IMG/VR virus record: IMGVR_UViG_3300047094_000493
Location: 1 to 40,002 of that record
DNA: 40,002 bases
Origin: a virus
Reading direction: 5' to 3' (one strand)
Within the stretch, counting starts at the first letter, position 1. Each line of letters starts with the position of its first letter. The notes below the pieces were generated by a model that was not told the origin of the DNA, searched no databases, and was given only the letters and a program-made list of their open reading frames with translations. The position numbers and the translations under genes were made by a program. Positions 9,962 to 24,921 of the stretch are shown here, piece by piece.

Positions 9962-10852
9962 TTAGCTCCAAGTGACGGTGCCCGTGCCTGCTGTGATCTG
10001 AATTACCGTGTCTGTGCCGACCGTGGTTCGCGTGGCAGTCAATCCAGCCGAGAGCGTGGCGACTGCCTGCGAGGCGTTCCAGCGGAGGATGACAATGCCG
10101 CTGCCGCCGTTGCCGCCATTGCTGGACGCGGTTCCATTGCAAGCTGCCCCGCCGCCGCCGCCGCCAGTACCCGCCGCGCCAGCCGTCCCTGCGACAGCAA
10201 GGTCCGCGGAACCTGCGCCGCCGCCTGTCAGCCCGCCTGAGCCAGCCGTCGATGTGCCAACGTATCCACCGCCGCCACCACCTGCTCCGTAGAAAATGGT
10301 TGTGCCGGTGATCGCGGACGATCTGCCGATTCCACCGTTACCAGACGCCGACGCCGTGGAGTCTGCACCGGCGGCACCCGCACCGCCGCCACCACCGGAA
10401 GAGGTGGCAGCACTGACGCCCTGGCCTCCGGTGTTGCCTTGGAGCGAGATCAATGACGACATCCGAGTAAGGAAGGAATTGCCAGCACCAGAAGCACCAG
10501 TGGCGGTGATAGACCCACCCGTGTTTGAGCCGCCGCCACCGAGCGCAACGATTGACGCAAACACTGATAGTCCGCCGTTGGCCCCTGAGTTGTTTGCGGC
10601 TGTGGCACCTGATCCACCTGCACCGATCTGTACAGAGTAGTTCGTCATAAGCGTGATGCCGATGCTTTGCTCAACAAAGCCGCCACCACCGCCGCCGCCG
10701 GCAGCCCTCTCGTTGCGCCTAGCCGCACCGCCACCACCAGCGACGATAAGTGCCTGCACGGCCAGCAACTTCCTCGCATCGGCAGTGCCACTAAACGGCC
10801 CCTGTACGGGCGTGACGATCTGCCCGCCTAGTCCGTAGATTCCTTGGTTCAC
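9962..10852 (-). CDS. Glycine-rich tail adhesin
   Basis: A 296-residue protein. I use the GTG at 10852 because it overlaps the upstream stop as GTGA. After a short start (NQGIYGLGGQIVTPVQGPFSG) comes VQALIVAGGGGAARR and then a long glycine-rich region with runs such as AAGGGGGGG, GSGATAANNSGANGG and GAGGGGGGYVG. It closes with NGGSGIVILRWN and a beta-strand tail (SAGLTATRTTVGTDTVIQITAGTGTVTW). The polyglycine-II-like sandwich of T-even gp38 tips has this composition. It probably sits at a fibre tip and binds the host; the function is inferred. It is the counterpart of the split gene at the window ends. Confidence 0.8.
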   Translation of the reverse strand: MNQGIYGLGGQIVTPVQGPFSGTADARKLLAVQALIVAGGGGAARRNERAAGGGGGGGFVEQSIGITLMTNYSVQIGAGGSGATAANNSGANGGLSVFASIVALGGGGSNTGGSITATGASGAGNSFLTRMSSLISLQGNTGGQGVSAATSSGGGGGAGAAGADSTASASGNGGIGRSSAITGTTIFYGAGGGGGGYVGTSTAGSGGLTGGGAGSADLAVAGTAGAAGTGGGGGGAACNGTASSNGGNGGSGIVILRWNASQAVATLSAGLTATRTTVGTDTVIQITAGTGTVTWS

Positions 10853-11232
10853 AGGTCGGCCCCGAGTGCGGTGACGTGCGTGGTCTGCGCCACGCTGGTC
10901 GTCACGCGGATCGACCACGACGCGGACGGCAGAATCAGGTTGTTGTAGCTAGTGCTGACGCGGGTCTGCTGCACAGTGCTAGACCCCGTCGCAGCCGCGA
11001 CCGCGATCTCGTCAAAGTGCCAGTACGTTGTGCCGTCATACAAAAACACGCGGACGATAGCCGCCGCGCTCGTCGCCGCCAGCTTCACAACGATTTCAGC
11101 AATGCGAGTGCCCGTGCTTGCACCTGTGATGAGCGTGCCCACGTTTGTCGGCGCGGTGTAGCTAGATTCTGCCGTGGCGATGCTGACGGCACCGATGCGA
11201 GGCGTGACGGCGAATGCTGGTGATGTAGCCAT
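10849..11232 (-). CDS. Structural protein of the fibre cassette, unknown
   Basis: A 127-residue protein (MATSPAFAVTPRIGAVSIATAESSYTAPTN, then TGTRIAEIVVKL, IVRVFLYDGTTYWHFDEIAV, ASWSIRVTTS). It is predicted all-beta without Cys or catalytic residues. I recognise the type from phage genomes, where it is found near fibres, possibly as a decoration or fibre-associated jelly-roll. It sits between the collagen-like fibre and the glycine-rich adhesin; the first fibre cassette has the FPATG protein (525-830) in the corresponding place. No specific function can be claimed. Confidence 0.65.
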   Translation of the reverse strand: MATSPAFAVTPRIGAVSIATAESSYTAPTNVGTLITGASTGTRIAEIVVKLAATSAAAIVRVFLYDGTTYWHFDEIAVAAATGSSTVQQTRVSTSYNNLILPSASWSIRVTTSVAQTTHVTALGADL

Positions 11233-11241
11233 GATGTGTCC

Positions 11242-12129
11242 TTAGCGAAAGTTGCTCCAGAGATAGAGATTGTCAGCCGCCGATGGAGTCGAAGAACCAC
11301 CACCGCCACCAGAGACTCCGATCTCTACGTAGACGGGCGACTCCCACTGGTAGATCCGCGACGTGTCCTCTGCGAGGTAAAGGGCAGAGTCTGAGCCGGT
11401 CGCGGGGAAGTTGGCGATAGACGCATAATTGAGCGAGGCGGCTGGGCCTTGTGGGCCTGTGGCTCCCGTAGCACCCGCCGGCCCCTGTGGCCCTGTTGCT
11501 CCCGTCGCACCAGTCGCACCTGCTGGCCCCTGCGGGCCAGTGGCTCCCGTGTCGCCTGCTGGACCTTGTGGACCAGTTGCACCCGTAGCTCCCGCAACGC
11601 CCTGCGGACCCTGCGGGCCTGTCGGTCCAGCTGGGCCAGCGTCACCCTGGTCGCCCTTCGCCCCGGCGGCTCCTGTCGCGCCAGTGGCTCCTGCAGCGCC
11701 TGCCGGTCCTTGGATGCCTTGCGGTCCCGTGGCACCTGCAACGCCGGCCGGCCCTTGCGGACCAACGTCGCCTGTGTCGCCCTTAGCTCCAGCTGCACCG
11801 GCAACGCCTTGAATGCCTTGCGGTCCTTGTGCCCCAGCTGCACCAGCGGCCCCCGGAACGCCTTGCGGCCCTTGCGGCCCGACATCGCCCTGATCGCCTT
11901 TCGCGCCCGCTGGCCCGGCCGGACCTTGCACGCCAGCAGCACCAGCTACGCCTGGGATGCCCTGCGGCCCCGCAGCCCCCTGCTGTCCTGCTGTTCCTGC
12001 CGCGCCTGCCGGCCCAACACCGCTGGCCGCGCTCACAGACGTGCTCGAGCTCGTCACGGCCGCCGACACGGACGCACCGGACACAGTGGCCGTGATCGGG
12101 CTGCTCGTGACGGTTGCGGTCGTCGTCAC
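11242..12129 (-). CDS. Collagen-like fibre
   Basis: A 295-residue protein starting at GTG 12129, which overlaps the upstream stop as GTGA. Residues 1-38 are a Thr/Ser/Val-rich beta segment similar to the start of the propeller fibre. Residues 39-230 are 64 uninterrupted Gly-X-Y triplets ([18 protein letters not shown]), a collagen triple-helix sequence that would form a trimeric rod about 55 nm long at 0.29 nm per residue. Residues 231-295 hold the [22 protein letters not shown] module and an end NLYLWSNFR. It is probably a trimeric fibre shaft with a C-terminal cap. No enzymatic motif was seen. Confidence 0.85.
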
Positions 12130-12449
12130 CCGACTACCTCCACCTGGCCCTGCAGGGCAGTCCGCCGCACGCTGCCGGGGGCATCCCACTCAAGCCGCCA
12201 GCCGTAGGTGCCAACAGGCAGGGCCGTCGTCTGCGTCTCAGTCAGTGCAATGTTCACGATCCCGGCCGCAGCGTTTGTCAGCGTGGTCGTGAATGCCGTC
12301 ATCGTGTTGCCGGTGACGAGCGACGTGATAACAGCCGTCACCGTGTAGCCCGTCATCGTCGTGGGCGAGAAGTCGATGGCCGTGCTGAGCTCGTCGCCTC
12401 GGCGAAGCGACAGCCCAAGCTGGCCCGGCAGTTGTTCGTAGGTGCTCAT
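12126..12449 (-). CDS. BppU-like fibre-support protein, second copy
   Basis: A 107-residue protein from the ATG at 12449, which overlaps the connector stop as ATGA; an upstream in-frame start was rejected for that reason. Segments [46 protein letters not shown] and YGWRLEWD match, in order, the protein at 2644-3012. The family resemblance to BppU N-terminal domains is tentative. It precedes the collagen-like fibre and may anchor it to the virion neck or head, given that this cassette interrupts the head-completion genes. Confidence 0.7.
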
Positions 12450-13247: not shown

Positions 13248-13979
13248 TTATCCTACGCTCCATGCAGTTTCGGGGGCCTTGTTCGCCTTCATCCAATCGC
13301 CCGTGTATTGGAAAACAGGCTTGCCGAGATCCTTTCCCGGCCACGTCACGACGTACTCGCCGTGGCCAATTGACACCCGTGGCGTGACGAAGCACTTGTT
13401 GCCAGAGTCTCGCCACGTGCGCCAAAAGCCGATGTCCGAATCGACACGGCCCTCGCCGTAGCTGCCTTGGGGATCTGGGCACTCCCAGAACCACGGCTTC
13501 TTCATTCGCTTGAGGGCAGCCGTCGAGAGAATCGTGCAGCCGAAGTGCGCCGAGTCCACCTGCTGCACAGGCTCGGCAAACCACGAAGCCGGCAGCGTGG
13601 TTGTGCCGCTGGCCGGCGGATCGTCCAGCGTGCCCAGTAGCGTCAGCATCGGCCTGCCGTCCTCTCGCTTGACCTGCAGAGGCGCGAGGGCGTCGCACTG
13701 GAACGCCAAGGCCATGGCGAATAGCTGCTCGATGTCCTGCTTTGAAACGAACGTGTCGAAATCCAAACAGATGATGTACTCGCACTGATCGACGAATTGC
13801 TCCATCATCCGCGTGAGCACCTGAGACCAGAACGCGCCCTGGCCGAGCGTGGGCCGGATGCCGAGCGGCATGAGGGCCTGAGCCCAGCCGAACAGGTTGG
13901 CCAGTGGGCCGAACCGTGGCCCTGACAGAATCGCCTCGGCCCGGATCTCGACCTCTGTGCCGCCGACCTTGATGAGCAT
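13248..13979 (-). CDS. Glycosyltransferase-like protein in the head module
   Basis: A 243-residue protein with a strong GGAGG site before the ATG. The pattern fits a GT-A nucleotide-sugar transferase: YIICLDFDTFVS places a DxD motif at Asp73/Asp75, and the C-terminal half has SAHFGCTILST, DSDIGFWRTWRDSG and VSIGHGEYV, where the acceptor and metal-binding residues of such enzymes usually fall. It lies between capsid and connector genes and just after a hairpin terminator, so it may have separate expression control. It might glycosylate the capsid or fibres or alter host polysaccharide; the substrate cannot be read from sequence. A longer open frame in another frame over this region is a shadow. 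Confidence 0.68.
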   Translation of the reverse strand: MLIKVGGTEVEIRAEAILSGPRFGPLANLFGWAQALMPLGIRPTLGQGAFWSQVLTRMMEQFVDQCEYIICLDFDTFVSKQDIEQLFAMALAFQCDALAPLQVKREDGRPMLTLLGTLDDPPASGTTTLPASWFAEPVQQVDSAHFGCTILSTAALKRMKKPWFWECPDPQGSYGEGRVDSDIGFWRTWRDSGNKCFVTPRVSIGHGEYVVTWPGKDLGKPVFQYTGDWMKANKAPETAWSVG

Positions 13980-15419: not shown

Positions 15420-15590
15420 CTAGGCCCGTGGCCCCTTGCAGAAGCGGACCTCGGAATGTGTTGTTTTCACAAACGCCACGCCGCGAGCGCCGCACCTCGG
15501 GCAACGGAGATACCGCTGCCGCTCGTTGCCGACCGGCCGGCTGGATCTGCACCGCAGACGCTCACCGCACTGGCACCGAACGTCAGACAT
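15420..15590 (-). CDS. Small zinc-ribbon protein
   Basis: A 56-residue protein whose ATG lies inside the last codons of the prohead protease gene (eight-base overlap). It has the pattern Cys6-x-Cys8 ... Cys14 and Cys30-x2-Cys33 (VRCQCGERLRC ... RYLRCPRCGARG), a zinc ribbon resembling Ogr/Delta-type regulators in layout. Cys51 is a further possible ligand. It may be a DNA-binding late regulator or a virion-assembly accessory; no HTH is seen. It is short, but the pattern and the coupled start make it convincing. Confidence 0.72.
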   Translation of the reverse strand: MSDVRCQCGERLRCRSSRPVGNERQRYLRCPRCGARGVAFVKTTHSEVRFCKGPRA

Positions 15591-16218
15591 TTCGGAGCCT
15601 CAGTGTCCACGCAGCAGCTGCGTCACGCACCAGCGAACGCTTTGCGATCTCGGCCGGAACTTCCACGGTCTGCTGCGTCTGCATCCACGCCTCGTAGGAC
15701 CGCATGGCCACGGCAGCGGAGGTGGCGGGATACGCTGGCACGAGTACCGGCCCAACGTCATAAAGCCCGCTCACCTCCCTGATCTGCCGGATGGCGTTGC
15801 CGTCCTCGCCCTGGCGGAAGCCCTCGCCGCCCTTGTCGACGGTGAACGCGAACGATGAGCCGCGAACGTCACGCCGCGAGATCAGCTCCATCACGTCGGC
15901 ACGGCTCACGGGTGGCGTGACCACGTACCGCAGCCCCTTCTCGTCACTCGACAGTTCCAGCGTCCCGCTCGAGGTGCGGCCCAGAACGATGTTGCTGTCG
16001 TGATTGAACAGGGCGACAACGTCCTGCTTGCCACGCTGGCGGGTGAGAATCCGGTCGAACGCTCCCGGCAGGATCTCTTCGCGGAAGCCGCCTAGGTCGA
16101 GGCTCAGCCGGTTATAGACGGCAGCGTAGCCGACGATCGCGGCCCGGCCGTCAGCCCGGCTCTCGACGATCAGCTCGTTGTCGTCCTCAAAGGCGAAGTC
16201 GCGGCGTTCAATTTCCAT
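15583..16218 (-). CDS. HK97 family prohead protease
   Basis: A 211-residue protein from the ATG at 16218, overlapping the portal stop by eleven bases. The family pattern is clear: GYAAVYNRLSLDLGGFREEILPGAF, a catalytic His in LFNHDSNIVLGRT, and the Ser in RDVRGSSFAFTV. VSRADVMELISRRD and YPATSAAVAMRS also match. It cleaves scaffold domains within the prohead (U35-type serine protease with a herpes-assemblin fold). It lies between portal and capsid as expected. Confidence 0.93.
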   Translation of the reverse strand: MEIERRDFAFEDDNELIVESRADGRAAIVGYAAVYNRLSLDLGGFREEILPGAFDRILTRQRGKQDVVALFNHDSNIVLGRTSSGTLELSSDEKGLRYVVTPPVSRADVMELISRRDVRGSSFAFTVDKGGEGFRQGEDGNAIRQIREVSGLYDVGPVLVPAYPATSAAVAMRSYEAWMQTQQTVEVPAEIAKRSLVRDAAAAWTLRLRNV

Positions 16219-17488
16219 TTGTGTCGTCCTCCTCGGATTGGTCCTCGGCATCGTCGGCTGGGCTTTCCTCTGCCTCGGCCGGGGGCATCGGCTCTACGGC
16301 CTGGCCCTCGCCCACCTTGTCGAGCGTGGTCATGTTGAGTTGCACGAAGTGTTGGTCACCCTCTGGCCCGATCGGGTTCAGGTTCTCCAACTCGCGGATC
16401 TCGTTGACCGACATCCACCCGTTCTGAAGTGCCGAGACGTAGTAGGCCGACCGGCTAGCGTGGTCGCCACGGAGCAGGCCCGAGACGCTGTGCTCCGCAA
16501 AGTACCTTTCGTCGTCCACGATGAGGTCGCGCGATATCGCAGACTCCCACCGCTTCAGATGGGGCAGCAAGCAATGCTGGAGAAATTCCGTCCCCTGTAC
16601 CTCAATATTCGAATACGTGCTTCTGCTCAGGTCTTGGATCATGTGAGGTGGTACGCGAAAAATTCTCGTGCACTCGACCACAGCGAATTGCCGGCTCTCC
16701 AGCATTTGCGCCGACTCATTGCTGCCACTGAGCTCGCGAACTTTCACGCCATTCGGGAGGACAGAAGTACGGAACGCACGGTCTGGCCCCCTGTGCATCC
16801 GCTCCCACTGCTCGCGGAGTCGCTCGGACGCCTCTGGCGGGATTGGGTTGTCGCTCTCAAGGATCACCCCAGGCCGTGCACCTGAGCCGAAGTAAGTGGC
16901 CGCGTGGGTCTCAAGGGCCTGCGAAAGACCGATGACGTTCTGAAACAGCTTGTAGGTCGGGATCGGCTTGATGCCGTCCTCGGTCGTGAACCGCAGGGCG
17001 AAGATCTGGTCCTGCGAGTAGATCGTGATCTTCCCGCTGGGCTCCTTGTATCTGTACCGCAGCCGGCCATCTTCAAGCCGCTCGGCCTCCATCCGCGAAG
17101 AGTGCAGCGGCCAGAGCTCGGAGATCGCACCTCGAGCACCTGGGCGGATCTCGGCGTAGCTGGCCCCGTAGTGCAGATACATTCCGGTCATCCAATCCCT
17201 AAATTCCTGCGCCGTCTGCCACGGATTCGGCTGCATGTGCAGGAGTCGGTAGACCGGGTTCGACGGGGCCTTGGCCTTACCGCCATTGGCCAGCCGCTCG
17301 TAGACGTGCAGCGGCAGCGAGCTCACCGCGTCAGAGATGACGCGGATGCAGGCAGTGTAGGCCGAGCAGGCCATCGAGTTGTCGGCCGTGACGCGGATGC
17401 CCGACGGTGTGCGGTTGCCGCCGTCGCCGTGCCACTCAATGCCACGAAGGTCGATCATCTTCCAATCGGCGGCAGCGTTCTCACTCAT
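16208..17488 (-). CDS. Portal protein, HK97 family
   Basis: A 426-residue protein from the ATG at 17488, overlapping the terminase stop as ATGA. Family signatures are TADNSMACSAYTACIRVISDAVSSLPLHVYER, HMQPNPWQTAQEFRDWMTGMYLHYGASYAEI, IFALRFTTEDG, and RFDGxx-like NEIRELENLNPIGPEGDQHFVQLNM near the C-terminus. It forms the dodecameric DNA channel at one capsid vertex. The C-terminus is very acidic (EAEESPADDAEDQSEEDD). Nothing is missing compared with family members. Confidence 0.95.
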   Translation of the reverse strand: MSENAAADWKMIDLRGIEWHGDGGNRTPSGIRVTADNSMACSAYTACIRVISDAVSSLPLHVYERLANGGKAKAPSNPVYRLLHMQPNPWQTAQEFRDWMTGMYLHYGASYAEIRPGARGAISELWPLHSSRMEAERLEDGRLRYRYKEPSGKITIYSQDQIFALRFTTEDGIKPIPTYKLFQNVIGLSQALETHAATYFGSGARPGVILESDNPIPPEASERLREQWERMHRGPDRAFRTSVLPNGVKVRELSGSNESAQMLESRQFAVVECTRIFRVPPHMIQDLSRSTYSNIEVQGTEFLQHCLLPHLKRWESAISRDLIVDDERYFAEHSVSGLLRGDHASRSAYYVSALQNGWMSVNEIRELENLNPIGPEGDQHFVQLNMTTLDKVGEGQAVEPMPPAEAEESPADDAEDQSEEDDTNGN

Positions 17489-19047
17489 AGCGTGATGATG
17501 TCCCAAGATTGTGCGGGTGCTGGGGCGGTCGAGGTCGCGTGGATGCCGAGTGCCATGATCAGGGCGACGATGCCGTCGATCCGCTCCGTGCTCTTAGCCT
17601 TCGACGGTTTCTTGTTTCCTTGGTGATCGCTCTGCACCGCCACGTTGGAAGCCTGCCACGACAGCACGGGGTGGCCGCCGTGCAGCAACTTGCCGCCGAC
17701 AACGGCAGCCTCCAGCGCGGCCGTAGGGCTCGACATAGAGCCGTATCCCTGCCCAAATCCTAAGACGTTCAAGCCCTCGCCTTGCAGTTGAGTAGTGATC
17801 TGGTGGGCGTTCCAGCGGTCGATCGCCACCTGCCGGATGTTGTATTTCTTGGAGAGTGCCACAATGTCGGCCCGCACCTGGTCGAAGTCGGTGACGTTGC
17901 CTGGAGTCAGGTGCAGTTTGCCTGCCTTCGCCCACACGTCGTACGGCACCCGGTCACGCTTCACCCGGTCCCGCATGTTTTCCTCTGGTATCCAGAAATG
18001 AGGCTCGGCCCAGAAGGTGCCGTCGTCCAGCGGGAACAGCAGACAGAAACAGGTCGTGTCGTAGGTGGTCGCTAGGTCTAAGCCACCGAATGCCTCCCTG
18101 CCATCAAGCATCACCGGGCACGGCTTGTCGCCCTGCGCCCAGTGAGACATCTGCAAGAAGCGAGTGTCCTGCTCGGTCCACATATTCAAGTGAAGACGCT
18201 TGAACGTGTTCTCTTCGGTCGGCATGTCTTGGGCACGCTTGCACCGGACCCGCAGGTCGTCGAGCTTCACGCTTACGCCCAGGTTGGGATTTGCTTTGCG
18301 CCACGTGTCCTCGGCCGTCCAATCATCTGCGGCCTCAGCTGCGTAGATCGCCGGCAGAAAGGTCGCGTCTTTGATAGCCCCGTCCCGCACAGCCAGGGCG
18401 TACCGCCAAAGCTCCCAGCAGATGCTCTTGCGATCAAAGCCCGCCGTGGTGATCGCCACACACAGCGGCTGCCGCCGGGCTCCGGTGCTCGTGGTCATCA
18501 CGTCCCAGAGCTCGCGGTCAGGCTGGGCGTGCAGCTCGTCGAAGATAATCCCGTGAGCGTTGAGCCCGTGCTTGGTAAACGCCTCGGCGGACAGGGCCTT
18601 GTAGGTCGTGTGCGTGTCCTCTCGCACGATGGAGTTGCGAAAGACTCGCAGCCGGCTCCGCAGCTTGGGCGAGTTCTCGACACAGACCTTCGCCATCTCA
18701 AAGACGAGTCGGGCCTGGTCCCTGTCGGCGGCGCACGAGTAGATCTCGGCCCCCGGCTCGCCGTCGAACATCAACTTGAGCGCAATGCCAGCACACAGCG
18801 TGCTCTTGCCGTTCTTGCGAGGGATCGCAAGCAGGCTTGTGCGGTACTGCCGCACATCGCCGTTCATCGTGCCGAACAGTTTCGACACGTAGTCCTTCTG
18901 CCACTGCTCGAGCACGAACGGCTTGCCGCCCAGCTCGCCCTTGCTGTGGGTCAGGTTCTCCTCAAAGAACCGGACGGCGATGTCGGCCGCCTTCGCATCA
19001 AGCGAACATGCGGGCGTCGTCTTCGTCTTCCTTCGGGCCTTGGTCAA
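17485..19047 (-). CDS. terL: Terminase large subunit
   Basis: A 520-residue packaging ATPase/nuclease of the HK97-like Terminase_1 type. Walker A is PRKNGKST at residues 76-83, and Walker B IIFDE at 167-171 is followed by LHAQPD. The nuclease half has GGLDLATTYD (first acidic site), VAIDRWNA (second) and ERIDGIVALIMAL (third). The only reasonable start is TTG at 19047, 50 bases inside terS, with a GAGGG sequence upstream; no ATG occurs before residue 61. It acts with the portal and TerS; the HNH protein at 19500-19865 is its likely partner in cos cleavage. Confidence 0.95.
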   Translation of the reverse strand: MTKARRKTKTTPACSLDAKAADIAVRFFEENLTHSKGELGGKPFVLEQWQKDYVSKLFGTMNGDVRQYRTSLLAIPRKNGKSTLCAGIALKLMFDGEPGAEIYSCAADRDQARLVFEMAKVCVENSPKLRSRLRVFRNSIVREDTHTTYKALSAEAFTKHGLNAHGIIFDELHAQPDRELWDVMTTSTGARRQPLCVAITTAGFDRKSICWELWRYALAVRDGAIKDATFLPAIYAAEAADDWTAEDTWRKANPNLGVSVKLDDLRVRCKRAQDMPTEENTFKRLHLNMWTEQDTRFLQMSHWAQGDKPCPVMLDGREAFGGLDLATTYDTTCFCLLFPLDDGTFWAEPHFWIPEENMRDRVKRDRVPYDVWAKAGKLHLTPGNVTDFDQVRADIVALSKKYNIRQVAIDRWNAHQITTQLQGEGLNVLGFGQGYGSMSSPTAALEAAVVGGKLLHGGHPVLSWQASNVAVQSDHQGNKKPSKAKSTERIDGIVALIMALGIHATSTAPAPAQSWDIITL

Positions 19048-19456
19048 CAGATGAGACCCTCGCCAGTGCAGATGCCGTGAGGCCGAACTCGGCCGCGAAC
19101 TTCAGCATCTGATTCCGTGCGTCGCGCTTCCTCATCCACGCCGGGTGATTGCTCACCCTACCCTTGTCGTCAATGAGAGTTGTGCCGTTGGCCTTGAGCT
19201 CTTGGTCGGCCTGCACCATGTCGGCGAAGGAGTCGCAGTAGGCCGCGAGCGTCTGCTGGTGCCGCGGCGACATGACCTTCGACGCCTCGAGCATCGGCAC
19301 GATCCGGTGCCACTCAGCCGAAGCGACTTCCGACAGCCACGCCGGGGCCGGCGGTACGCCAGGTGGTGCGTCGATGCCAGCCTTATGCGGTCCCCTAACG
19401 CGAGAGCCTCGCAGGCTAAGAATCGCTTTAGGCGTCGGCTTCCTGCCTTTTCCCAC
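18998..19456 (-). CDS. terS: Terminase small subunit, P27 family
   Basis: A 152-residue protein. It starts at GTG 19456 with GAGG seven bases upstream. The opening MGKGRKPTPKAILSLRGSR and the middle WLSEVASAEWHRIVPMLEASKVMSPRHQQTLAAYCDSFADMVQAD are characteristic of the P27/Terminase_4 family, which recognises the packaging site and stimulates TerL. The C-terminus (MLKFAAEFGLTASALARV) is the usual ending helix. The 50-base overlap with terL suggests translational coupling. Confidence 0.92.
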   Translation of the reverse strand: MGKGRKPTPKAILSLRGSRVRGPHKAGIDAPPGVPPAPAWLSEVASAEWHRIVPMLEASKVMSPRHQQTLAAYCDSFADMVQADQELKANGTTLIDDKGRVSNHPAWMRKRDARNQMLKFAAEFGLTASALARVSSVDQGPKEDEDDARMFA

Positions 19457-19499: not shown

Positions 19500-19865
19500 T
19501 TACGACCGTGGTTCGCCAGACCCCACCCCCCCGTGATGGGGAGCACCCTCCCCCCTCCCCGCCGGTGGGCGCTCTCGGATCGTCTTCCGTGAGTGACACG
19601 CACGACATCGGCACGCGCCATTGCTCAGCTCGTACCGAAGGTCGGGGCGCTCGGCCACTGGCACGATGTGGTCGGCATGGTTGGCCTGGTCAATGCGTCC
19701 ACAGTCCACACAGGCCCATGCGTCACGGGTCAGCACGGCTTGCCGCCACTTGCGGTGTCTTTGGTCGGTGTAGCCGCGAGCCGATGCGTTAGGCCTAGCG
19801 GTGTCGTCACGCCTCTGCTGTGTACGCAGGCGAGGCGGGCGATAGCTTGGCATCCTGCTAGGCAT
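19500..19865 (-). CDS. HNH endonuclease
   Basis: A 121-residue protein with the phage HNH pattern GYTDQRHRKWRQAVLTRDAWACVDCG, ADHIVPVAERPDLRYELSNGACRCRACHSRKT. It includes the CxxC and CxxC zinc pairs and the D-H...N...H catalytic arrangement. HNH proteins next to terminase genes are needed for efficient terminase cutting in HK97 and related phages, so this is probably a packaging component and not a homing enzyme. The ATG at 19865 lies shortly after the previous stop; a second ATG four codons on is possible. Confidence 0.9.
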   Translation of the reverse strand: MPSRMPSYRPPRLRTQQRRDDTARPNASARGYTDQRHRKWRQAVLTRDAWACVDCGRIDQANHADHIVPVAERPDLRYELSNGACRCRACHSRKTIRERPPAGRGEGAPHHGGVGSGEPRS

Positions 19866-19868
19866 AGG

Positions 19869-20120
19869 CTACTTCTTCACCGCACACGTAGGGCACACGG
19901 TCCTATGGCCATCACCGTGGACGATGTAGCCTTTGCCGCCACAGTCCACACACACGGCGGGCTTAGGCTTGGGCGGCTCTGGCGTGGGCTCTGGGGCCTT
20001 GTCCTGGGCAGTTGTGGCATACGCTGCCGACACTGCTGCTGAGGCTTTAGGGGCCTCGAGGTCGATCTGTGCAGGGTCAGCCGAGAGGGCCGCTAGTACA
20101 GAGAGGATGTACTGCCACAT
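19869..20120 (-). CDS. Small membrane-anchored zinc-ribbon protein
   Basis: An 83-residue protein from the second ATG (20120), which has AAGGA eight bases upstream; the first ATG at 20129 has no room for a binding site. It starts with a hydrophobic helix (WQYILSVLAALSA), then a proline-rich linker (PEPTPEPPKPKP), then a C-terminal ribbon CVDCGGKGYIVHGDGHRTVCPTC with two CxxC pairs, as in DnaJ-type zinc centres. It belongs to the cluster of small membrane proteins before the terminase region. The function is unknown. Confidence 0.68.
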   Translation of the reverse strand: MWQYILSVLAALSADPAQIDLEAPKASAAVSAAYATTAQDKAPEPTPEPPKPKPAVCVDCGGKGYIVHGDGHRTVCPTCAVKK

Positions 20121-20122
20121 GA

Positions 20123-20383
20123 TTACCATCCTTGCCCGTGGTTGATCACTCTGTGTCCATCAGCATCGACCCGAGCGTGGACTACATACGCCTGCTCGGC
20201 CGGGGGCGGCTCGGCAAACATCATGACCCATAGGCCCGCCTTGGCGAGCCTCGCCAGCAGGCGCAGGACGGGGCGTTGTGGCTCTGGCTTCACTGGGCTG
20301 TAGTCGCTCGTGGCTGCCCACCACGTGAGCAGCACGGCCACCAGGCCCACGACCACGGCTGTCTGCATTTCTTTCTGGGTCAT
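20123..20383 (-). CDS. Small membrane protein
   Basis: An 86-residue protein with one clear membrane segment near the start (TAVVVGLVAVLLTWWAAT) and possibly a second amphipathic stretch (LARLAKAGLWVMMFAE). It overlaps the gene upstream by ATGA-type coupling and is followed two bases later by the zinc-ribbon protein. Size, topology and setting would fit a holin- or spanin-like factor, but there is no family motif to prove it. Confidence 0.6.
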   Translation of the reverse strand: MTQKEMQTAVVVGLVAVLLTWWAATSDYSPVKPEPQRPVLRLLARLAKAGLWVMMFAEPPPAEQAYVVHARVDADGHRVINHGQGW

Positions 20384-20607
20384 CGGTCAACGCTCCAGAC
20401 GGAGTAGACGAACATCACCACGCACGCACCGATCACGCTGCCGATCAGGCCAGCAGGGCCATTCCCAAACGGCAGCCCACCTGCGAGAGAGCCGATCAGG
20501 CCAAGCCCGATGGTCGGCACCCAGCCTTCAGGGCACTTGCCGGGCATCAGCCACTTGGCGATGCCACCGGCGATTGCGCCGAATACGAGCCACAAGAGAA
20601 GCGACAT
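20380..20607 (-). CDS. GlsB/YeaQ/YmgE-like small membrane protein
   Basis: A 75-residue protein with three hydrophobic segments: LLLWLVFGAIAGGIAKWLMPG, IGLGLIGSLAGG and AGLIGSVIGACVVMFVYSVW. The spacing and the GAIAGxIAKxLMPG start match the transglycosylase-associated (GlsB/YeaQ/YmgE) family of bacterial envelope-stress proteins. In a phage lysis region it could act as a holin or antiholin, which is inference. A GGAGA site precedes the ATG. Confidence 0.75.
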   Translation of the reverse strand: MSLLLWLVFGAIAGGIAKWLMPGKCPEGWVPTIGLGLIGSLAGGLPFGNGPAGLIGSVIGACVVMFVYSVWSVDR

Positions 20608-20615
20608 GGGATCTC

Positions 20616-21749
20616 CTACTGTGCAAGGTGGAACGTGTCAGCAATGAGGCGAGCAGGTGAAGGCATCCGAGCTTCTGGCGGGAATGGCTGCAGCCAATTG
20701 CCGTGGTCCAGATTCCGATACTTGAAATTCACGCCGCTGATGCTGAACGAATCTTGACCCGAGAGCATCGCGTCAACCGTCTGGCGATCCACCCAGAATG
20801 AGCCGTCTGGCTGATCGGCCGGCCACTTCGGGCCTGCATTAAAGACGCCCCAGCTGTTCATGCAGAGAAGCCCATCACGCTTGCCTTCGTTCTTGGCGTA
20901 ACGCACGGCAAGGAAGCACATGCAATGCGCCCAAGAGCCTTGGCGTGGCGCGAAGCCATCGGCGTCACGCTGCGACGAAAAGCCAACTCCGCTGCAAACT
21001 GGCACACAAAAGCCGCTTTCTAAACTTGCGGCAGCCTCGTCAAAGTTTCGCACGAGGGCGACGTTTGTCGCCGTGTTCTTGTTGGCTAGCTTGGCGAGGG
21101 AAATTCCCACTTGCCCACCGCCGCACAACAAGTTGCCCCATTCCTTCGCCCGCTGCGGGCTGTAGGTCGTCAGGTCGGCACCGGGGTACGGCTGGCGAAA
21201 CAGGATGCCGCCTACCGTCGGGTCTTTGCACTTGCCGGCGACCCAGCGTGCAGCTGCTCCGCCATAGGAGCCGTCGGAGTACCCTGCCTGCGTGACCGGG
21301 GGAAGCCGTCCCGCAGTGCGACTGCCCGAGTACAGGCTGGTCGTGTCCACGAGCTTGGGCGGCTCAGGCAATTCGCCCTCGGCCCAATCGACGCACTGGC
21401 CAACGTAACTTCCCATCGCCCACCCGAAGCTGACACAATCCCCGATTCCCTGCTTCCACGGGCCGAAAGGCTTGCCGTAGACCTGGCGGTGAGCACGGTC
21501 TGCGAAGCGATAGAGGAACGTGTCCTGCCCCTTGGCGTTCTTGATCACGTCCTTGGCAGCGTCCGAGAAGAGTGGCTGGTCGAGCTCGGCCAAGAAACGC
21601 TGCGTCCCGGCAGGATCTGGCACATAGCCGAACTGCCCGTCAATGCGTGCCGCGACCCGGTGCGTGGCTCGCTCAACGAGCGCACCCAAGATCGCCATCA
21701 CGATCACGAACACAACGGCAGACAGCGACCAGCGGTTAGCGCGTGACAT
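20616..21749 (-). CDS. Membrane-anchored papain-like cysteine peptidase, candidate lysin
   Basis: A 377-residue protein from the ATG at 21749, which overlaps the previous stop. Residues 8-25 are a signal-anchor helix. The mature part shows a papain-type layout: KQGIGDCVSFGWAMG (Cys105, with the usual Gln100 ahead as oxyanion residue), SWAHCMCF (His275) and LCMNSWGV (Asn298). Family members with the GDCVxFGWA pattern occur in planctomycete genomes as far as I recall. No muramidase, amidase or transglycosylase was found elsewhere in the window, so this peptidase, amid small membrane proteins, is the best candidate for host lysis. Other roles, such as virion entry or envelope processing, are possible. 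Confidence 0.75.
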   Translation of the reverse strand: MSRANRWSLSAVVFVIVMAILGALVERATHRVAARIDGQFGYVPDPAGTQRFLAELDQPLFSDAAKDVIKNAKGQDTFLYRFADRAHRQVYGKPFGPWKQGIGDCVSFGWAMGSYVGQCVDWAEGELPEPPKLVDTTSLYSGSRTAGRLPPVTQAGYSDGSYGGAAARWVAGKCKDPTVGGILFRQPYPGADLTTYSPQRAKEWGNLLCGGGQVGISLAKLANKNTATNVALVRNFDEAAASLESGFCVPVCSGVGFSSQRDADGFAPRQGSWAHCMCFLAVRYAKNEGKRDGLLCMNSWGVFNAGPKWPADQPDGSFWVDRQTVDAMLSGQDSFSISGVNFKYRNLDHGNWLQPFPPEARMPSPARLIADTFHLAQ

Positions 21750-22290
21750 CGGCAGCAGCCCTCGACAGGTCACGGAGTGCCGACACCCACGCCGCCCGGC
21801 TCTCTGGCGTCACAGGACCGCCAGATGAGCCCACAGCGTCGTCTAAGAACTTATGGATGGCTTCTTTGGCGTGCGGCTGCCGGGCACCGATGCTCTCGCC
21901 ACGGCATCGCATCTCGCGGGCGGCGATCCGCAGCTCATCAAACGCCACGCCCGTCTTGAGCCGCTGGTCGTGTTGTCCGTCCCACTCAATGCAATCTGCG
22001 AGTTCTGAGCACAAGGCTGACAGCACACTGGCGTCTGAGGCGGCGCGTTCGCCGATAAATTTTCCCTTGAGCGTGAACGCATCCGGCGGCACCGGCGCAG
22101 GGGATGGCTGCGGTGCTTGCCGCTGCGGCGCGAACGCAATCGCCGCAGCCATGAGCAACGCCACCGCTGCGACGTGCTTGCCGTCAAACGTCGGCCACTT
22201 TGCCGTGGCAATGAACGCTTTGAACTTCTCTGCGATCTGCTGCCCAGCGAGAGCATAGACCGCGACGGCAACAAGCAGTGCTGTAATCAC
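21736..22290 (-). CDS. Membrane protein with soluble C-terminal domain
   Basis: A 184-residue protein starting at GTG 22290, which overlaps the upstream stop as GTGA. Two hydrophobic segments near the start (ITALLVAVAVYALAG and HVAAVALLMAAAIAF) are followed by a proline-rich stretch and a helical domain with several Cys (ALCSELADCIEWDG, AREMRCRGES). It is coupled to the papain-like peptidase gene downstream. The two-helix topology is compatible with a holin fused to, or combined with, a periplasmic domain; this is not proven and no family was recognised. Confidence 0.62.
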   Translation of the reverse strand: MITALLVAVAVYALAGQQIAEKFKAFIATAKWPTFDGKHVAAVALLMAAAIAFAPQRQAPQPSPAPVPPDAFTLKGKFIGERAASDASVLSALCSELADCIEWDGQHDQRLKTGVAFDELRIAAREMRCRGESIGARQPHAKEAIHKFLDDAVGSSGGPVTPESRAAWVSALRDLSRAAADVTR

Positions 22291-22658
22291 GGCTTCCTCA
22301 ATAGTGGCAGAAGAATCTCAATAGTCCCGGCAGCGATAGCGATGACGAGAGCGCGAGCGGCTGGCCTGACGAAGTACCAAAACGGGTACAGGCTCATCGG
22401 CACACACAGCACGGCCACAGAGTCAAACAGCACGCCGATAGCCTCAAGCACGATCTGCCGTTTCTCCTCGCCCGTCAGGTTCTGTGTGGCGTCAAGCGTC
22501 TCGACAGCCAGCCGCACGAGAGCGGCGACGAGACAGCCGAACTCCGTTATCGTCAGCCCGTCTTTCGCCGAGACGCGAGCCGTGACGAGAAACGCCGACA
22601 CCTTTGACGCAATGTCGTTGAACGGTGCAGCGGCAGCGAGTGGGGCGTCGGCGACCAT
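22287..22658 (-). CDS. Putative membrane protein of the lysis region
   Basis: A 123-residue protein from the ATG at 22658; a TTG nine bases further up was not used. It is mostly helical, with an amphipathic centre (LTITEFGCLVAALVRLAVETLDATQNLTGEEKRQIVLEAIGVLFDSVA) and one long hydrophobic C-terminal region (LCVPMSLYPFWYFVRPAARALVIAIAAGTIEILLPLL) holding one or two membrane helices. Its place at the head of the envelope cluster suggests a holin-type partner of the peptidase. Nothing more specific can be seen. Confidence 0.6.
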   Translation of the reverse strand: MVADAPLAAAAPFNDIASKVSAFLVTARVSAKDGLTITEFGCLVAALVRLAVETLDATQNLTGEEKRQIVLEAIGVLFDSVAVLCVPMSLYPFWYFVRPAARALVIAIAAGTIEILLPLLRKP

Positions 22659-22660
22659 AC

Positions 22661-23020
22661 CTACCAATCTGGCTGGATTTCGGGGCTGTCTTGCAGTTCT
22701 TCAGGCAGGGAATACGAACGCAGCTGGAAAAACTGCGTCTTCACCACGCGGCGATCTTGCTCGGTCGCGTCGTCCCAGGAATCGCGGATACGCTTGGTGG
22801 CCGCTCGGATCTCGCTCGGCGTCGGGTCGCGGCACTCCGACCGCTTGGGCTTGAAGCGAAAGCGACGGTCGTGGCGAGGAGCCAGCGGCACCACGCCCTT
22901 GAGCCTGATCAGCTGGTCCTTCGTGATCGTCCAGTGGGTGCAGATCGCGACCATAGCCGAGTGAGAGTCCCACTGGATGCGAAGGAGGTTCAGATCAATC
23001 CTTGCCGTGTTGCCCGCCAT
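22661..23020 (-). CDS. Hypothetical basic protein with HTH-like segment
   Basis: A 119-residue protein of high charge. The first half (DLNLLRIQWDSHSAMVAICTHWTITKDQLIRLKGVVPLAPRHDRRFRF) could form a GcrA-like or generic helix-turn-helix (ICTHWTITKDQLIRLK), and the second half has PTPSEIRAATKRIRDSWDD. It overlaps the glycosyltransferase gene upstream by 26 bases. A late regulator is conceivable, since it lies before the lysis and head genes, but there is no direct evidence. Confidence 0.6.
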   Translation of the reverse strand: MAGNTARIDLNLLRIQWDSHSAMVAICTHWTITKDQLIRLKGVVPLAPRHDRRFRFKPKRSECRDPTPSEIRAATKRIRDSWDDATEQDRRVVKTQFFQLRSYSLPEELQDSPEIQPDW

Positions 23021-23882
23021 CCAGCCACCTCATCAAGCACCGTTGAGACGGGTTGAGGTACAATCGCTGCCCCGTCGCAGCGGCAATGCTCTCGTGAAAC
23101 GTGACGTGCTCGCAGTCCGCTCCGTCGTACTTGCCGGCCAGATATGCGGCTGTCCGGTAGATCGTCAGCCCGCCCATCGCGCTACACACCGGCACAGGAG
23201 GCGACCCGACCGGCGGCAGCCACTGGTGCTTCCACCCGCCGAGGCCGTTGGTGTAGTCGTCCCAGTACGAATTCAGCCTGAGTGCCCAGCAGTCGTAGTG
23301 CAGCCACGCTGCAACCGCCCGCGCCTCGCCGGCAGCGTTTGTCTCGTATGCCGGATGCTGCAGGAGCGACACGCTGGCCATGCCGTAGGCTTCTGGCATT
23401 TCTCGAAGCCACCCAAAGCCGTTCAGCACGCCCTCGGGTAGCCAGCCGCCCCATGCGTCCAAGTCAATCACCACGACGTAGTCGGCCTCGGCCGCACACT
23501 CACGCACCCAACGCTGGCACGCTGTGCGGTACTCGGCCAGGGCCTCAGTCCGCCGGCCAGCAAACTCCGTGGTGAAATGCTGCCGGTTGAGCCGCTGGCT
23601 TGTGAATGTCGCCTGGCTGTGCTGGCGGCAGAAGTCGGCGAGCACCTGGTCGGTGGCGTCCTCGTTGTCGTTCGTCTCGACGTGCAGCTGCCACTCGCCG
23701 CAAGCGTCACCCAGCCGGGCCGCAAGCTCGAGGTTGGCTGCCAGCTGCGGCGCGCAGTTGCGGGCCAGCCCGACAATGGCGATCCGGCTTTCGGCGAGCT
23801 CGACGGCCCCAAGGACGACCTGTTCGTCGAACGATGACCGGAAGGGCTCGGTGGGCCGCACAAGGTGCTCAGGGATTTTCAC
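22995..23882 (-). CDS. Glycosyltransferase, GT-A type
   Basis: A 295-residue protein starting at GTG 23882, overlapping the upstream stop as GTGA; the longer open frame upstream is a shadow of the neighbouring gene. A Rossmann-like start (SRIAIVGLARNCAPQLAANL) is followed by YVVVIDLDAWGG with DxD at Asp140/Asp142, and the C-terminal part has VTFHESIAAATGQRLYLNPSQ. This resembles family members that transfer sugars to extracellular or lipid-linked acceptors (Anp1/GT62-like layout, tentative). It is paired with the next gene and may modify host surface sugars or virion proteins. Confidence 0.75.
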   Translation of the reverse strand: MKIPEHLVRPTEPFRSSFDEQVVLGAVELAESRIAIVGLARNCAPQLAANLELAARLGDACGEWQLHVETNDNEDATDQVLADFCRQHSQATFTSQRLNRQHFTTEFAGRRTEALAEYRTACQRWVRECAAEADYVVVIDLDAWGGWLPEGVLNGFGWLREMPEAYGMASVSLLQHPAYETNAAGEARAVAAWLHYDCWALRLNSYWDDYTNGLGGWKHQWLPPVGSPPVPVCSAMGGLTIYRTAAYLAGKYDGADCEHVTFHESIAAATGQRLYLNPSQRCLMRWLDGGQHGKD

Positions 23883-24505
23883 CGTTTCACCTGCGTCAGA
23901 ATGCTTTTCAGCCACTCGGTTCGCTCCTCCATCGGAAAGACGCCGCACGGGTGGTACACGAAGTCGCCCTGCTGCCAGTGGCCACCGACTTCGTCCCTCG
24001 CGTTCGCCGGCCGGTTCCACACGCACGAGTTGAAGGCCCGGAGCGGTGCCACGGTCAGTACGTCCACGCCAACCGAAGCGAGCTCGCCGAGTAGGGTTTG
24101 CCACCCACACCGCAGGCCCACCCACCGGTTACGCTCTTCGGAAATCGTCTGCAGCAGAGCGCGTGCCTTGGTCGTGTCTCGCCATACCATGCTGCCGCAG
24201 TTCAAGCGGTTCCACGACACGATTCCTTCCTCGCACACCGTGACGTGCGGCCCGATGCACGCGAGCTCGTGGATAGGCTGCCGCATGTCTGTGATGACGG
24301 CATCGCAGTCGAGCGTCCACAGCATGTCGAACCTGTCGAGGTAGTGGCACAGCAGGTCGACTCTGGCCACCGCCTGGTCGTACGGCTGGTTGTCGCAGAT
24401 CAGCGAGTACCCGTGCCGCAGGCAATATTCCAGCTTGTTCGGAACGGTCAGCGCCGCCAGATCGGCAATGTTCGCCGACACGCTCGTTACGAGTGCCACG
24501 CTCAC
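23879..24505 (-). CDS. Glycosyltransferase, GT34-like (galactosyltransferase GMA12/MNN10 type)
   Basis: A 208-residue protein starting at GTG 24505, again coupled by GTGA. The start VALVTSVSANIADLAALTVPNKLEYCLRHGYSL, the WTLDCDAVITD motif (DxD at Asp66/Asp68), and the C-terminal GGHWQQGDFVYHPCG follow the GT34 order of motifs, where the final His coordinates the metal. The protein is shorter than eukaryotic members and lacks a membrane anchor, so it is likely cytoplasmic. It probably acts in one pathway with the gene downstream. Confidence 0.75.
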   Translation of the reverse strand: MSVALVTSVSANIADLAALTVPNKLEYCLRHGYSLICDNQPYDQAVARVDLLCHYLDRFDMLWTLDCDAVITDMRQPIHELACIGPHVTVCEEGIVSWNRLNCGSMVWRDTTKARALLQTISEERNRWVGLRCGWQTLLGELASVGVDVLTVAPLRAFNSCVWNRPANARDEVGGHWQQGDFVYHPCGVFPMEERTEWLKSILTQVKR

Positions 24506-24900
24506 GTTACACGCACGGTCGTCCGTGCCTCCGTGCCGTACCGCTTTTCGATCACCAACCGCTTCACCTGCTTGTCGTTGCCGATGATTGGGCCGATGGC
24601 ATCCAGAACCGCCTTGGCCACGTTGTCCACGTCCGGCAGCGGGGCGGGCGGTGCGGTGGGCTTGAGCCCCTTTTTGTTCAGGTGCGACCTTGGCCGCACG
24701 AACACGGCGTCGATCACCACCTCCACCGTTCCCGTACAGGCACGGAGGCCAGCGTCAACGGCTGCCAGCTGTAGGGCCTTGCGGTAGGCGTGGATCGGGT
24801 GCCGTGCCTCAACGTAGGCGTGCGCGAACTTGCCACGGGTCGTGATCTTTGCCCGAGGCTGCGGGACCGGCTCGCCGTCAACGGAAAACGCGATTGACAT
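24502..24900 (-). CDS. rusA: Holliday junction resolvase, RusA family
   Basis: A 132-residue protein from the ATG at 24900 (MSIAFSVDGEPVPQPRAKI); a GTG six codons upstream is less likely. The signature LPDVDNVAKAVLDAIGPIIGNDKQV carries the three conserved Asp residues and the Lys of RusA enzymes, which cut four-way junctions made in recombination or replication. Phage copies are thought to tidy branched DNA before packaging. It fits with the RecA-like and SSB-like genes at 30911-32393. Confidence 0.93.
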   Translation of the reverse strand: MSIAFSVDGEPVPQPRAKITTRGKFAHAYVEARHPIHAYRKALQLAAVDAGLRACTGTVEVVIDAVFVRPRSHLNKKGLKPTAPPAPLPDVDNVAKAVLDAIGPIIGNDKQVKRLVIEKRYGTEARTTVRVT

Positions 24901-24921
24901 GCCGCCATAGTCGCCCACTTG

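Follow-up and report, generated by a model that had tools for sequence, protein, structure and literature searches.

A module of six tightly packed genes (F1 to F6) in an IMG/VR virus record is probably a phage lysis cassette whose endolysin slot is occupied by a papain-like cysteine peptidase (F3). Lysis is the most likely role in view of the position of the module, its conservation, the lack of known murein hydrolases, and the existence of both anchored and unanchored forms of the enzyme. The window (the whole stretch of DNA analyzed here, 40,002 bp) comes from a linear, possibly incomplete record. It also encodes terminases, a tape measure protein, head-tail proteins, and RusA, with a tyrosine integrase on the opposite strand; the phage is probably siphovirus-like and temperate.

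Gene layout, predicted fold of F3, and partner genes

The module runs from 22658 to 19869 on the minus strand, in the layout RusA, two glycosyltransferase-like genes, F0 to F6, HNH-TerS-TerL. The six ORFs were found at the same coordinates as in the original prediction, which had singled out the region as a candidate for unusual lysis. The features are as follows:

24502-24918, minus strand: RusA resolvase, upstream of the module (Pfam RusA, E 6e-20)
22661-23020, minus strand: F0, small soluble protein upstream of F1 (20 of 80 loci; part of the family only)
22287-22658, minus strand: F1, small membrane protein and candidate holin-like partner
21736-22290, minus strand: F2, N-terminal hydrophobic segments followed by an exported-looking domain
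20616-21749, minus strand: F3, predicted signal-anchored papain-fold cysteine peptidase, Q100-C105-H275-N298 (conservation, model, and fold search)
20380-20607, minus strand: F4, GlsB/YeaQ-like two-helix membrane protein (NCBIfam PRK10457, E 2.1e-10, below cut-off)
20123-20383, minus strand: F5, one-helix protein with a C-terminal NHGQGW
19869-20120, minus strand: F6, Cys-rich CxxC...CxxC tail, possible redox or metal-binding partner (from sequence)
19500-19865, minus strand: HNH endonuclease, directly downstream of F6 (PHROG 589, E 8e-21)
18998-19456, minus strand: terminase small subunit, TerS (Pfam Terminase_4, E 4.5e-23)
17485-19047, minus strand: terminase large subunit, TerL (relatives in 1282 phage records; 39% identity to the pPLIM01 homolog)

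By their coordinates, F1 and F2 overlap by 4 nt, F4 and F5 by 4 nt, and F2 and F3 by 14 nt, which suggests a single translationally coupled operon. The RusA gene upstream of the module is comparable to the end of the early region in lambdoid phages. Two glycosyltransferase-like genes (22995-24125 and 23879-24505) lie just before the module and another (13248-13979) among the head genes; Pfam supports these assignments weakly to moderately (23879-24505, GT34 with E 1.6e-6; 13248-13979, no match). Collagen-repeat, EPTP/propeller-like, and glycine-rich proteins (11242-12189, 830-2722, and 9962-10918) are probably parts of tail fibers.

The true start of F3 (MSRANRW...) lies at 21749 and yields a protein of 377 aa. 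In this numbering, Cys105, His275, and Asn298, previously noted in papain order, are confirmed, and Gln100 completes the set. All four are invariant in an alignment of 23 diverse sequences; across the family of 106 distinct homologs, the Gln is kept in 105/105, the Cys in 105/105, the His in 106/106, and the Asn in 102/106. The active-site Asn is replaced by Gln in a subgroup of four homologs (L131, L140, L155, and L157). An AlphaFold2 model of F3 (pLDDT 85, pTM 0.80) was assigned to the papain fold by Foldseek and VIA-align 2; an earlier model, for which the alignment was narrow, reached only pLDDT 52 and was discarded. The best solved match is xylellain (Z 21.3, rmsd 3.0, 239 residues), and further structure matches include procathepsins (procathepsin B1, Z 19.0) and Cwp84 (Z 16.9). 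In BFVD, the model matches further papain-like proteins of phages and, with weak similarity, mycobacteriophage LysA.

The window F3 could not be placed in a family by sequence searches of Pfam (nothing at E up to 1), PHROGs, NCBIfam, PDB, and INPHARED; a profile of F3 against PDB sequences had a best match of only E 0.025, and Peptidase_C39_2 is matched weakly by 5 of 23 family members (best E 0.005). We call F3 papain-like, and do not file it as C1A, because it has no significant Pfam match to the C1 profile. On the strength of the model, F3 is a predicted papain-like cysteine peptidase. Its strongly hydrophobic N-terminal segment (residues 4 through 30, peak hydropathy 2.56) comprises a single N-terminal helix, modeled as residues 9 through 37; this anchor is absent from some distant homologs. 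All six genes are under purifying selection (median dN/dS 0.085 to 0.21), with a value of 0.085 for F3 and 0.115 to 0.21 for the nonprotease genes (F1, 0.19).

Four or five of the six genes had been expected to encode membrane helices. F1 conforms, with two or three hydrophobic segments; F6 does not, having merely a short N-terminal hydrophobic stretch, with no clear 19-residue helix, ahead of its CxxC...CxxC tail. The assignment of F4 to the GlsB/YeaQ type survives as a likeness (to PRK10457) that stays below curated cut-offs (Pfam Transgly_assoc, E 0.04). In some planctomycete elements the F2 homologs are lipoprotein-like, with lipobox-like starts in L131 and L117, and an F5-like ending (NHAQGW) is found in element L130. 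Pfam and PHROG searches gave no family match above chance for F1 and no confident match to holin or spanin families among the partner genes; none of the small membrane genes matched a holin family. Among F1, F2, F4, and F5, the likeliest candidate for a holin or pinholin is F1.

Distribution and genomic position of the module

Relatives of F3 are encoded on 589 IMG/VR stretches. In loci with enough flanking sequence the neighbors recur (F1 in 85 of 98, F2, upstream of F3, in 99 of 108, F4 in 72 of 103, F5 in 81 of 96, and F6 in 76 of 87), and the commonest order is F1-F2-protease-F4-F5-F6. HNH, TerS, and TerL are present in only part of these loci; the module is thus kept in phages with different neighbors.

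A planctomycete host, raised in the original prediction, is supported by a syntenic Planctomycetota MAG contig (peptidase, 52% identity), by the gene order of the plasmid pPLIM01, and by a genome survey. An F3-type peptidase occurs in at least 13 of 392 sampled Planctomycetota genomes (a lower bound, scoring having been limited to the top five candidates in each genome) and, among 395 Bacteroidota, in the seed genome alone; with the two seeds excluded, the counts are 12/391 versus 0/394 (~2e-4, one-sided). A search for the gene set in planctomycete prophages, proposed at the same time, found it, including in elements of Planctopirus limnophila. One of these, pPLIM01, is a closed circular 37,010-bp phage-plasmid of P. 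limnophila DSM 3776 with one copy of the peptidase (PLIM_RS21800, annotated as hypothetical), which lies in the order membrane protein, peptidase, membrane protein, HNH, TerL, portal, head protease, capsid; a literature search on the plasmid name found no paper. Window and pPLIM01 proteins share only 24 to 39% identity, so the gene order common to them is old.

Most of the twelve planctomycete loci that were read in detail have packaging or head-tail genes near the peptidase. The position is of the lambda type in the window (before HNH-TerS-TerL) and on pPLIM01 (before HNH-TerL); the peptidase adjoins the terminase in G342, G124, and G380, and it has the P2-type position, between head and tail genes, on the G324 chromosome and in G286. 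The chromosomal prophage copy of P. limnophila lies at G324:C1 2747195-2747998. The peptidase gene is thereby mostly found in one of the two classic lysis slots, near the terminase or at the junction of head and tail genes. In planctomycete chromosomes, the closest relatives of TerL (~50% identity) do not have the module upstream, which is uninformative either way.

A phage-like cluster of ~25 kb occupies the same chromosomal locus in three planctomycete species (L127 and L128 in G124:C4; L129 and L130 in G342:C1; L178 and L179 in G470:C2). The flanks hold the same host genes, and dS is about 1 in both cluster and flanks. TerL, portal, capsid, peptidase, and the thioredoxin protein have dN/dS values of 0.08 to 0.25 (peptidase, about 0.13), and no integrase or replication genes were seen in the cluster. 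It is thus an orthologous phage-like cluster under purifying selection, as looked for in a gene transfer agent, and is a candidate for a gene transfer agent or a domesticated phage. In G336:C5 (L125), peptidase, thioredoxin, and TerL lie ~16 kb from a related portal gene (435459-436952), with host-like genes between, and the cluster has possibly been split.

Occurrence of the gene set outside phages in another role had been named as evidence that would speak against lysis. What was found is the peptidase gene without phage genes around it, in Mucilaginibacter and in planctomycete G364 (L134, no phage genes in view). The lone Mucilaginibacter homologs (L083 and L084) are without a signal anchor and cytosolic, with the catalytic residues kept; used as a query, the Mucilaginibacter protein found no relative in IMG/VR.

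Murein hydrolase search and alternative roles

It had been observed that nothing else in the window resembles an endolysin, and this is borne out: Pfam and PHROGs revealed no peptidoglycan hydrolase family there. We pooled 57 window and pPLIM01 proteins that had no other identification, setting aside those already assigned or scanned separately (one pPLIM01 protein was truncated at the edge of its locus, and the pool lacked a few short ORFs annotated on pPLIM01). The 23 Pfam families matched at E up to 0.01 include no murein hydrolase, and the best 25 of 69 matching PHROG families include no lysis family. For 112 proteins of eight planctomycete elements, no murein hydrolase is found among the best 25 of 29 Pfam families, the other four being single matches for which E values below about 4e-6 are not expected; none of 15 virus records contains Amidase_2. 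A GH24 phage lysozyme is present in 6 of 392 planctomycete genomes (L172 through L177) and in none of the 13 with the peptidase; murein lysozymes may thus also serve in Planctomycetota. Of the proposed lysis region, the lysis-slot position and the lack of a recognizable endolysin in the window or the complete replicon therefore stand, while a holin family match was not obtained.

The peptidase could be a lysis accessory that removes an outer-envelope or murein-linked protein, like the spanin or LysB step, with an unrecognized murein hydrolase cutting the wall. The earlier suggestion of a protein wall in place of murein did not hold: P. limnophila, the host of pPLIM01, has peptidoglycan, and its sacculi consist of lysozyme-sensitive murein (PMC4432640). 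Since the host phylum has murein, a hydrolase too divergent for Pfam or PHROGs could exist, and many proteins of the window, pPLIM01, and the eight elements have no assigned family. Nevertheless, the searches of the window, the closed replicon, and the eight further elements detected no family of murein hydrolases, and the endolysin slot is already occupied by the peptidase; we regard an accessory role as rather unlikely.

We consider it improbable that the module acts in lysogenic conversion, superinfection exclusion, or envelope remodeling and not lysis. Partners that are mostly membrane or exported proteins, the likeness of F4 to GlsB/YeaQ proteins, and the lone homologs outside phages are all compatible with such a role, but the association with packaging or head-tail genes, and the fact that a phage-like element passed on vertically has kept the peptidase, speak for a part in making or releasing particles. 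In an element kept in this way, a particle-release gene would be expected to persist, and a superinfection gene less so. A role as a virion maturation or virion-associated protease, which the location between head and tail genes in two elements might suggest, is very improbable, because another ORF of the window (15583-16251) reads from its sequence as prohead-protease-like, pPLIM01 has an annotated ClpP-type head protease, a signal anchor would remove the enzyme from the cytoplasm, the site of head assembly, and the neighbors are membrane proteins. With other head proteases present, a prohead-protease role for F3 was set aside.

Proposed mechanism and comparison with known systems

In nine planctomycete loci the peptidase is followed, immediately or after one intervening gene, by a thioredoxin- or glutaredoxin-like gene, with Pfam support in eight. 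The F6 homologs of G342 (L130), G124 (L127), G470, and G336 (L125) have a thioredoxin domain, as does the gene after the peptidase in G302, G425, and G364; G402 has a glutaredoxin-like domain and G392 a CGPC motif without a Pfam match. An F5-type gene or space separates the peptidase from the thioredoxin gene in G342, G124, and G470. G454 carries the window-type ribbon motif, and in the IMG/VR relatives the WCxxC motif is missing and just the Cys-rich tail remains. Such a partner may reflect the need of an exported cysteine peptidase for a reductant in an oxidizing compartment, or the opening of wall disulfides. Either would fit older chemistry, in which Planctomyces envelope protein is SDS-resistant, cysteine-rich, and disulfide-stabilized (PMC3035269); against it stands the murein of P. 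limnophila (PMC4432640).

In the lysis cassette that we infer, the peptidase would be exported by its N-terminal signal anchor and work in the periplasm, with F1, F2, F4, and F5 as putative membrane partners. F6, or the thioredoxin in related elements, would keep the catalytic cysteine reduced or open envelope disulfides; the peptidase would then cut envelope protein, or possibly the peptide part of murein, and the cell would burst. Lysis cannot be assumed, since a planctomycete phage released without lysis has been described (PMC10945688). We put forward only tentatively the broader proposal that phages of Planctomycetota lyse by reduction plus proteolysis, the thioredoxin or Cys-rich partner opening disulfides and the peptidase digesting a cystine-stabilized protein layer. 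If this is true, proteolysis, not murein hydrolysis, would be the decisive lysis step, and the module would be a protein-directed lysis system in bacteria.

F3 shares its predicted papain fold, the Q-C-H-N active site, and an NSWG motif with xylellain and the C1 papain family (cathepsin B and Cwp84); it differs from that family in being phage-encoded, membrane-anchored, and without a Pfam match. SAR endolysins (P1 Lyz and R21 of phage 21) are murein hydrolases, and the active site of P1 Lyz is redox-controlled. F3 resembles them in its N-terminal signal anchor and lysis-slot position but differs in its papain fold, and the split between SAR and classical endolysins is resembled by that between anchored and anchorless F3 homologs. 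PeiP and PeiW, pseudomurein endoisopeptidases of family C71 from viruses of archaeal hosts, are cysteine peptidases that act as virus lysis enzymes on a nonmurein wall, as proposed for F3, although they belong to a different family. The lysis cassettes of lambda and P2 are matched in position (before the terminase, or between head and tail genes) and in the small membrane genes around the enzyme, whereas the window module has no recognized holin, endolysin, or spanin family. Mycobacteriophage LysA has an N5 papain-superfamily domain (PMC3314691) and is thus, like F3, a (for F3, putative) phage lysis enzyme with a papain-superfamily peptidase domain. LysA usually combines an amidase or muramidase module with wall-binding domains and has peptidoglycan as its target, whereas F3 is a single anchored peptidase with no known muralytic domain. 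What we propose is accordingly a variant of the phage lysis cassette, a papain-like enzyme in lysis being already known inside LysA.

How phages break planctomycete cells appears to be undescribed; a literature search on planctomycete phage lysis and endolysins gave nothing on point. Hundreds of environmental phage stretches carry the module, as does pPLIM01 of P. limnophila, a species for which deletion methods exist (PMC4910669), which makes the question of lysis testable. If confirmed, a peptidase with a redox partner would join the known lysis enzymes, the finding would inform the long-standing debate over a protein layer in planctomycete walls, and annotators would gain a marker for phages of Planctomycetota.
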